Assembly: GCA_937899725.1 (NCBI GenBank)
Contig: CALCCA010000087.1
Span: 1 to 61,978, forward strand
Direction: 5' to 3'
DNA from: an uncultured Halomicronema sp.
GTDB taxonomy: Bacteria > Cyanobacteriota > Cyanobacteriia > Phormidesmidales > Phormidesmidaceae
Length of the DNA: 61,978 bases
The notes under the pieces are model-generated. The model had not been told where the DNA came from. It saw only the letters and a program-made list of their open reading frames with translations, and ran no database searches. Below, piece after piece: positions 60,218 through 61,923 of this stretch; the stretch's first letter is position 1, and each line of letters opens with the position of its first letter. A program made the translations under genes and the position numbers.

Positions 60218-60776
60218 TGCACTTTTCCCGTAGAGATCATGAAGGTGTACTCAGTGGCTCCTTGATGCCATCACTGGCCCAGGTTTCAGAGGCGATCGCC
60301 GCTGGTTCGCGAGGAGTTCTACAGAGCTTACTTTACTAAATCTTCAAAAGGAATTCAGTAATGCCTCTGTAGTCAGAACCTGTTCACGGAGCTAGCCAAT
60401 AATACTTCTATCCCGAAGCCTCATCACACGACCAAGAGCACCGATGATTCTTGAGCACCAACCTGCTCATCGCAAAAGGCGGCTCAGGCGACATTGCTAC
60501 CTGGGAAAAGGATGCGTTCTGCGGTTACGGCATGGGTGAGTGAGCGTCTCATCGAACACTGCTGGGCAGAATTTTCCGCCCCTTGGACGGGTTACCTGAT
60601 TTGAACTCTAAGCCTTGGACTTCCAACCCCAGTCATTGCGAATAGTCAGGCTCTTGGCGCCACCCTCTACTCGGCGATCACCCCATCAATCAAGTTGGCG
60701 TGGGCTCTTCCTAAGATCTTCTTTTTCTTTTGCTCTAATGATGGCGTCCACTTAGATGATTTCATCTTTAAGACCA
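60218..60776. other. Long upstream region of psbA
   Basis: These 559 bases separate the PEP-CTERM-like gene from psbA. No tRNA, riboswitch or convincing gene was found. A stretch at about 60451-60543 reads open on the plus strand for some 30 codons, but lacks a start with ribosome site. The psbA promoter and 5' leader must lie in the right part. Confidence 0.4.
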
Positions 60777-61856
60777 ATGACTACCCTTCTACAACGTCAA
60801 GACAAAAACTTGTGGGAGAGCTTCTGTAATTGGATCACCAGTACCGAAAACCGCCTCTATATTGGCTGGTTCGGTGTTTTGATGATTCCGCTGCTAGGAG
60901 TTTCTACCACCGTCTTTGTCCTTGCCTTTATTGCGGCTCCCCCGGTCGATATTGATGGCATCCGGGAACCGCTGTCTGGCTCATTGCTGTATGGCAACAA
61001 CATCATTACAGCGGCAGTCGTGCCCTCGTCTAATGCGATCGGCCTCCATTTTTATCCAATTTGGGAAGCAGCCACCCTGGATGAGTGGCTCTATAACGGC
61101 GGCCCGTATCAGATGATCGCCTTCCATTACATTCCGGCATTACTTTGCTATATGGGCCGTGAATGGGAACTGAGCTATCGCTTGGGCATGCGTCCTTGGA
61201 TTTGTGTAGCCTATTCTGCTCCGGTGGCGGCAACGACCTCAGTATTTCTGATTTACCCCATCGGCCAGGGCAGCTTTTCTGACGGCCTACCCATGGGCAT
61301 TAGCGGCACCTTCAATTTTATGTTTGTCTTCCAGGCAGAACATAATATTTTGATGCATCCGTTCCACATGTTGGGGGTCGCGGGAGTGCTCGGCGGTTCT
61401 TTGTTCTGTGCCATGCATGGGTCTTTGGTGACCTCAAGCCTGATTCGAGAGACGACCGAAAATCAGTCTCAAAATGATGGCTATAAGTTTGGCCAAGAAT
61501 CAGAAACCTACAACATTCTGGCGGCACACGGCTATTTTGGCCGCTTGATTTTCCAATATGCCAGCTTTAACAACTCCCGCTGGCTGCACTTTTTCCTAGC
61601 TGCCTGGCCGGTCGTTTGTATCTGGTTTGTGGCGCTGGGCATTAGCACGATGGCGTTTAACCTCAATGGCTTCAACTTTAATCACTCGATTCTGGACTCT
61701 CAAGGTCGAGTGTTGCCGAGTTGGGCTGATGTGGTTAATCGAGCCAATTTAGGGTTTGAGGTTTTGCATGAGCGTAATGCCCATAATTTCCCTCTAGATT
61801 TGGCGAGCGCACCGGCGATTCCTGTGGCCTATCAGGTATCTGAGATTCAGGCTTAA
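60777..61856 (+). CDS. psbA: Photosystem II D1 protein, divergent variant
   Basis: A 359-residue D1 reaction-centre protein from ATG 60777 ([10 protein letters not shown]; an in-frame upstream ATG at 60756 is unlikely). By alignment with standard D1 numbering, all water-oxidation ligands are kept: D170, E189, H332, E333, H337, D342 and A344, as are Tyr161, His190, His198, His215 and His272. Position 130 is Glu, the high-light type. Unusual residues are A80 (for Gly), W270 (for Ser in SRSLHFF), C282 (for Gly), V286 (for Thr) and D235 (for Tyr). A80 and a changed 286 are two of the three marks of the low-oxygen-induced D1' form; F158 is unchanged. The C-terminal extension after A344 is normal. 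Confidence 0.95.
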
Positions 61857-61888: not shown

Positions 61889-61923
61889 ACAGCGCTTTCT
61901 CTTCAGAAAAGCGCTGTTTTTTT
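61889..61923 (+). terminator. Rho-independent terminator of psbA
   Basis: ACAGCGCTTT (61889-61898) pairs exactly with AAAGCGCTGT (61908-61917) around a nine-base loop, and is followed by seven T. It lies 33 bases after the psbA stop, so the gene is transcribed on its own. Confidence 0.92.

Follow-up and report, generated by a model that had tools for sequence, protein, structure and literature searches.

A far-red D1 gene (psbA3) of the FaRLiP cluster in a Nodosilinea-like cyanobacterium, preceded by a candidate direct-repeat operator

The stretch of DNA analyzed here (the window) corresponds to bases 1–61,978 of contig C87 (154,692 bases) in a 7.0-Mb draft genome and ends with a gene for an unusual photosystem II D1 protein. 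Judged by its residues, its position in the D1 tree, and its neighbors, this gene is almost certainly psbA3 of the FaRLiP cluster in a Nodosilinea-like cyanobacterium, which would be switched on by far-red light and encodes a D1 whose ChlD1 site would carry chlorophyll d. The window D1 is a further member of an already known family and not a new D1 class.

The gene encoding this far-red D1 (FR-D1/PsbA3) is located at positions 60777–61856 on the plus strand and translates into an intact D1 of 359 residues; its assignment draws on the translation, the diagnostic residues, the FR-D1 clade, the matches to solved structures, and the cluster downstream. The frame is already open from an ATG at 60756, and the start was set at 60777 based on the likeness to other far-red D1 proteins; because the N-terminus is one residue short, standard D1 numbering, used below, equals the protein index plus one. 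In this numbering, the window D1 presents A80, F158, D235, W270, C282, and V286 and keeps Y161, D170, E189, H190, H198, H215, S264, H272, H332, E333, D342, and A344. All Mn4CaO5, TyrZ, PD1, and iron ligands checked are thus intact, in agreement with the first-pass annotation, which had described the water-oxidation ligands as complete. Shortly 3′ of the stop codon, an inverted repeat followed by a T run (61890–61923, plus strand), read directly from the sequence, probably represents an intrinsic terminator, suggesting that psbA3 is probably its own transcription unit. psbA3 is the sole FaRLiP-cluster gene placed inside the window.

D1-type proteins were gathered from cyanobacterial genomes, and removal of rows with <300 query residues reduced the set from 165 to 148 rows (131 unique). 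For a census of diagnostic columns, rows with <280 residues or <45% identity were removed, and L003 and L007–L012, second copies of L115, L119–L121, L123, and L124, were left out; some doubles were retained (L061 is identical to L068, L005 and L116 are one gene, and the G033 row equals 8eqm) and some genomes may duplicate strains of named loci, so that counts represent rows, not independent events. Among rows with >70% identity, labeling by Y119 and T154 yielded 33 far-red and 90 other D1 rows, the latter including 88 standard rows and two (L134 and L137) with a D1′ signature. Twelve columns (L40, V43, S44, V47, M114, Y119, P121, A122, L123, T154, L172, and M174) split the two groups, with the letter present in ≥90% of far-red rows and ≤10% of other rows; while the far-red label started from Y119 and T154, the other ten columns are independent of it, as is the reduced tree described below. 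The window D1 carries all 12 of these letters, Y119 and T154 among them; none of the 12, which separate the far-red group best, was in the list of the first-pass annotation. After the addition of three more far-red rows, the number of diagnostic letters per row is bimodal (36 of 152 D1-type rows with 11–12, all others with ≤4), and Y119 and T154 are each found in 36/36 far-red rows and 0/88 standard rows. Thr155 and Tyr120 (PCC 7335 numbering, i.e., 154 and 119 in standard numbering), both named in PMC9325196, are known hydrogen-bond contacts of chlorophyll d at ChlD1. The same source gives twelve FRL-specific D1 residues, clustered around ChlD1; that this number equals that of our census columns may be a coincidence.

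In a tree of 92 rows, obtained by a quick search with SH-aLRT support only and including 28 of the 88 standard rows, the far-red rows formed a single clade (SH-aLRT 100). A reduced tree omitted 19 columns, i.e., the 12 diagnostic ones and positions 80, 158, 235, 270, 276, 282, and 286; the far-red clade retained a support of 98, and the window D1 stayed in a 13-row Nodosilinea/PCC 7335 branch, also with a support of 98. The first-pass annotation had proposed that clustering with ordinary D1, together with its noted residues being common there, would speak against an alternative D1; both trees placed the window D1 apart from the standard rows, and of its five noted residues, four were absent from all of these rows (0/88). 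An ordinary constitutive D1 that had undergone neutral drift would show, as here, all catalytic ligands checked intact; however, the 79–82% identity to the three other D1 copies of the same genome, the position in both trees, and 12 letters common to nearly all other far-red rows reduce the probability of this explanation to almost nil.

The nearest solved chains are D1 of far-red photosystem II from Synechococcus sp. PCC 7335 (8eqm and 7sa3); this FR-D1/PsbA3 shows approximately 90% identity to the window D1 and has A80, Y119, P121, E130, T154, F158, A276, C282, and V286 in common with it, but differs at positions 270 (Q270 vs. W270) and 235 (E235 vs. D235) and at about 30 further positions. 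Even higher identity (93–94%) was found for the FR-D1 of Nodosilinea sp. P-1105, LEGE 07088, and LEGE 07298, which present W270, C282, and V286 as in the window D1 but T or S, instead of D, at position 235.

The first-pass annotation had listed A80, D235, W270, C282, and V286 as departures from standard D1, and the translation and counts over 88 standard and 36 far-red rows (rows not de-duplicated) indicate that these departures are real. A80 was found in 0/88 standard and 28/36 far-red rows, D235 in 0/88 and 2/36, W270 in 0/88 and 10/36, C282 in 11/88 and 36/36, and V286 in 0/88 and 12/36. Judged by these counts, C282 and, usually, A80 are part of the general far-red D1 set. V286 and W270 are markers of the Nodosilinea/PCC 7335 branch. 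Column 235 is variable, with at least five different letters among the 36 far-red rows, so that D235 was not kept as a marker.

Low-oxygen (microoxic) D1′, which is expressed under anoxia, has changes at positions 80, 158, and 286, and its signature we take to be A80, L158, and A286. The window D1 shares A80 with the two rows of D1′ signature; position 286, however, is V rather than A, and F158 is kept, confirming the first-pass annotation, in which positions 80 and 286 were changed and Phe158 was not. L134 and L137 (A80/L158/A286, assigned by signature alone) fall outside the far-red clade, and the window D1 has all 12 far-red letters, such that a D1′ identity appears exceedingly improbable. 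What remains of the earlier idea of a stress-specific D1 is an alternative, probably condition-specific D1; a D1′-like low-oxygen form is not retained, given F158 and the absence of A286.

The first-pass annotation had also offered a new D1 subgroup, and such a subgroup, specialized on the QB/iron side and defined by W270 together with V286, would be in line with several observations. A DNA pattern for N-N-S-R-W-L-H-F-F matched in 10 of 388 genomes of the class, every carrier being a far-red D1 (carriers identical to an existing row were not added a second time) and nine belonging to the same family. V286 is present in 12, and W270 in 9, of the 13 rows of the supported far-red branch, and position 270 is a contact of the QB lipid: S270 of Thermosynechococcus interacts with an SQDG lipid close to QB, and its loss is considered to make the exchange of QB easier (PMC9709244). 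However, this branch is nested inside FR-D1, D235 is just one of at least five letters found in its column, and on the tree of 36 far-red rows W270 needs four changes while V286 needs two, so that these residues change separately and do not form one package. Mixed states are found in G323 (W270 with T286), in PCC 7335, G033, and LEGE 11477 (Q270 with V286), and in G030 (S270 with T286); G323, the tenth carrier of the pattern, lies elsewhere and has T286, suggesting a second origin of W270. We consider a QB/iron-side subgroup unlikely, and because the window D1 is a far-red D1 of the FaRLiP cluster, it does not represent a new subgroup. The related proposal of acceptor-side tuning fits W270, given the contact of S270 with SQDG near QB, but not V286, since position 286 is a contact site of PD1, the donor chlorophyll (PMC12107152). 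In the window D1, W270 may accordingly have its effect at QB, and V286 may have its effect at the donor pigment; both residues look like tuning at the level of the lineage, added to the far-red design.

On C87, the FaRLiP cluster begins at about 60.8 kb, runs past the window end, and continues beyond 91.5 kb. psbA3 is followed by a DUF1257 gene, psbH2, a gene for a small membrane protein, psbB2, psbC2, and psbD3, then by allophycocyanin genes and an ApcE-type linker gene (apcE2), then by psbO, psbF, psbV, a divergent psbA, psaA2, psaB2, psaL2, a PsaI gene, psaF2, and a PsaJ gene, and finally by the rfp genes, which encode a response regulator (a winged-helix domain plus two receiver stretches), a kinase of the phytochrome type, and a CheY-like protein. 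Pfam was run on ten cluster proteins; the other names, including those of several small genes, come from similarity and translations. A FaRLiP cluster of this kind has been described by Gan and others (PMC4390838). The divergent psbA near C87:78.2–79.4 kb encodes A170, D189, S332, F342, and G344 and keeps E333; since most Mn ligands are lost, as in ChlF, this gene was read as ChlF-like. An identity of the window D1 itself as ChlF (super-rogue PsbA4) was ruled out by its intact Mn ligands, with the ChlF-like gene being a separate one.

FaRLiP apc or rfp genes were found nearby in 24 of 25 named far-red psbA loci and in 0 of 53 standard psbA loci, using similarity thresholds that were chosen once the far-red loci had been looked at; the remaining far-red locus, a 3.4-kb contig, has a match to chlF alone. 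This comparison does not use chlF because 13 of the 53 standard loci passed the chlF threshold, presumably due to standard psbA itself; chlF was the only label in each of these 13 loci. While psbB2-psbC2-psbD3-apcE2 also adjoin FR-D1 in Nodosilinea sp. P-1105, LEGE 07088, and LEGE 07298, psbB2-psbC2-psbD3 are upstream on the same strand in these three genomes but downstream on the other strand on C87. In its location and length, the small protein encoded after psbH2 is similar to the 48-residue subunit of Nodosilinea and others described in PMC9325196. A reaction-centre family search of the assembly gave six matches, of which four were taken to be D1, one a ChlF-like protein, and one the far-red D2 (psbD3); this search found no white-light psbD in the draft assembly, probably due to an assembly gap.

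Paralogues of psbO, psbF, and psbV are present in the cluster at about 75.2–77.2 kb of C87 (L116:3164–5198), with 54%, 82%, and 49% identity, respectively, to the other copies in the genome. Matches to psbO and psbV together with FaRLiP genes were also found in G003, G007, G012, G030, and G033, and matches to psbF in the same genomes except G007. The FaRLiP cluster of Halomicronema hongdechloris is likewise reported to have additional psbO and psbV copies (PMC6416890); the C87 cluster contains a psbF copy as well, while the word psbF is absent from the main text on the H. hongdechloris cluster in that source. In G033 (L144, G033:C1:2765000–2784000), the far-red D1 is identical to 8eqm (PCC 7335) over the aligned part, and psbO-psbF-psbV adjoin the cluster gene apcD3. 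If G033 is PCC 7335, this placement would contrast with PMC9843442, according to which the genes for the PsbO, PsbV, and PsbF isoforms of that strain lie outside any FaRLiP cluster. In addition, one contig filed under ‘Candidatus Gracilibacteria’ (L047) holds cyanobacterial FaRLiP genes, probably representing a binning error.

The mechanism we propose begins with far-red light, which, as known for other species, would switch on the cluster through the phytochrome system RfpA/RfpC/RfpB; RfpB apparently activates genes of the FaRLiP cluster (PMC4658448). The window D1 would then be made in far-red light, replace ordinary D1, and pair with D2, CP43, CP47, and PsbH from the cluster in a water-splitting photosystem II. 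Based on residue identity, Y119 and T154 would keep a chlorophyll d in the ChlD1 site by its formyl group, and this chlorophyll d would make charge separation possible at about 727 nm. In the structures from PCC 7335, the chlorophyll d at ChlD1 is held by Thr155, which in turn is bonded to Tyr120, and the donor bleaching at 727 nm comes from Chroococcidiopsis thermalis (PMC8689208, PMC9843442). V286 would take away a threonine hydroxyl near PD1, and W270 would stand in for the serine that contacts the lipid beside QB.

Alignment of psbA3 upstream regions identified an element, TCTTCCTAAGATCTTCTTTTTCTTTTGCTCTAAT, at positions 60706–60739 on the plus strand, 37–71 bases before the psbA3 start codon. 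Each of the 12 Nodosilinea-type far-red psbA genes compared has a counterpart of this 34-base element in its upstream region (250 bases aligned; 11 different sequences), with the TTTG part 42–58 bases before the start codon. The window copy is a degenerate variant with 3 mismatches to the 15-mer TTCATnRGTTCTTCA; because ten sites in the window, this one included, have ≤3 mismatches to the 15-mer, the window copy rests on the upstream alignment and not on the 15-mer. A matrix built from psbA3 sites only also matches four other places in the same cluster (scores of 32.4, 23.4, 19.7, and 18.0), i.e., two divergent sites between apcD3 and psbO, one site before chlF, and one before rfpB on the opposite strand. 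By comparison, the highest score within 60.5 kb of the window was 8.7. Forty first-order shuffles gave a mean maximum of 8.1 and a largest maximum of 19.7, a value that the two weaker cluster matches (19.7 and 18.0) fail to surpass.

The consensus of 30 Nodosilinea-type sites includes a repeat of TTCA, and a matrix of these sites scored >15 within 500 bases before psbA3 in 16 of 21 far-red loci of other groups; both matrices were built without any site from these 21 FaRLiP loci. The five loci without such a score are L047 and L052, which have a match ≥20 further upstream, and L058, L072, and L075, which have a match ≥20 before the psbA-type or chlF gene preceding psbA3. The 15-mer, worded after the matches in the 21 loci were known, had 20 exact matches in 13 of these loci and none in the 53 standard psbA loci (787 kb); with ≤1 mismatch, there were 32 matches in 20 of the 21 loci and none in the controls, and with two mismatches 44 matches (21 loci) vs. 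11 in the controls (9 loci). The 32 matches lie outside mapped cluster genes, facing psbA-type genes (26, divergent psbA genes included), chlF (4), or psaA2 (2), 52 to 1155 bases ahead. In 600-base upstream regions, the median score of the psbA3-only matrix was 20.4 for the 21 FaRLiP loci and 6.5 for 50 standard loci (Mann-Whitney p = 6e-11), a comparison among related loci in which the 600-base span and the operon heads for L058, L072, and L075 were chosen after a first look and 3 of the 53 controls (<300 bases upstream) were dropped. With a score of 20.7, one control region (L056) ranked higher than several FaRLiP regions, the weakest of which scored 11.7, and at a threshold of 12 this matrix is unspecific (58 matches in 306 kb of FaRLiP loci vs. 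52 in 787 kb of controls, i.e., in 30 of 53 loci).

At the genome level, an exact 15-mer was found in 16 of 21 genomes with the far-red D1 pattern, in nine of them on the D1 contig and within 14 kb, vs. 60 of 367 genomes without the pattern; this pattern is rough, in that its 21 carriers, five of them without the 15-mer, were only partly checked as D1 and in that it misses the far-red D1 of G323. A 19-base version allowing ≤3 mismatches gave 10 matches in the genome studied here, three of them in the cluster, compared with four for the reversed control; two out-of-cluster matches that were inspected (L161 and L165) presented no obvious regulon member. The TTCA half-sites of the 15-mer are 11 bp apart, a spacing that fits OmpR/PhoB-type regulators, and RfpB has an OmpR/PhoB-type DNA-binding domain according to Pfam. 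We therefore propose TCTTCCTAAGATCTTCTTTTTCTTTTGCTCTAAT as a candidate RfpB-type operator. That FaRLiP transcription units across cyanobacteria share one direct-repeat operator, TTCATnRGTTCTTCA, bound by RfpB, with the window psbA3 having a variant copy, is about as likely as not. No prior report of such an upstream element was found in the available text of the literature searched, which included PMC6424891, PMC4658448, PMC11424453, PMC9386421, and PMC8827656 and mostly excluded subscription papers and preprints.

A second unusual D1 of the same genome, designated here GRTNEI D1, is encoded on the minus strand of another contig (G000:C112:9622–10698; L001, L204, and L213) and shows 91% identity to the D1 encoded on contig C1. 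This protein keeps the Mn, TyrZ, and Fe ligands checked, and its rewritten QB loop, GRTNEILLGARANSR, is five residues longer than that of the C1 D1 and is without S264 and F265. All 53 solved D1 sequences among the matches listed span five residues fewer than the C112 query piece (alignments inspected for two). The loop pattern matched in 15 of 388 genomes of the class, which belong to three family groups, whereas the reversed control matched in none; all 15 carriers decode to a D1 with the ligands checked. A divergent TetR-type gene is located upstream in 13 of the 15 carriers vs. 0 of 53 standard psbA loci, the TetR type being based on Pfam for three of these genes; L199 and L201 gave no match. 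Our guess is that GRTNEI D1 is induced chemically and evades inhibitors acting at the QB site.

For the D1 family, our analyses remove the claim of a new D1 class and add one well-placed member to a known family, in which the residues of the far-red design (C282 and, usually, A80) can now be separated from the lineage-variable V286, W270, and D235. GRTNEI D1 and the shared upstream element are more interesting outcomes than the window D1 itself. If confirmed, the upstream repeat would provide a binding site for the far-red master regulator RfpB, which would make the far-red regulon predictable from sequence and would help in moving far-red photosynthesis into other organisms.
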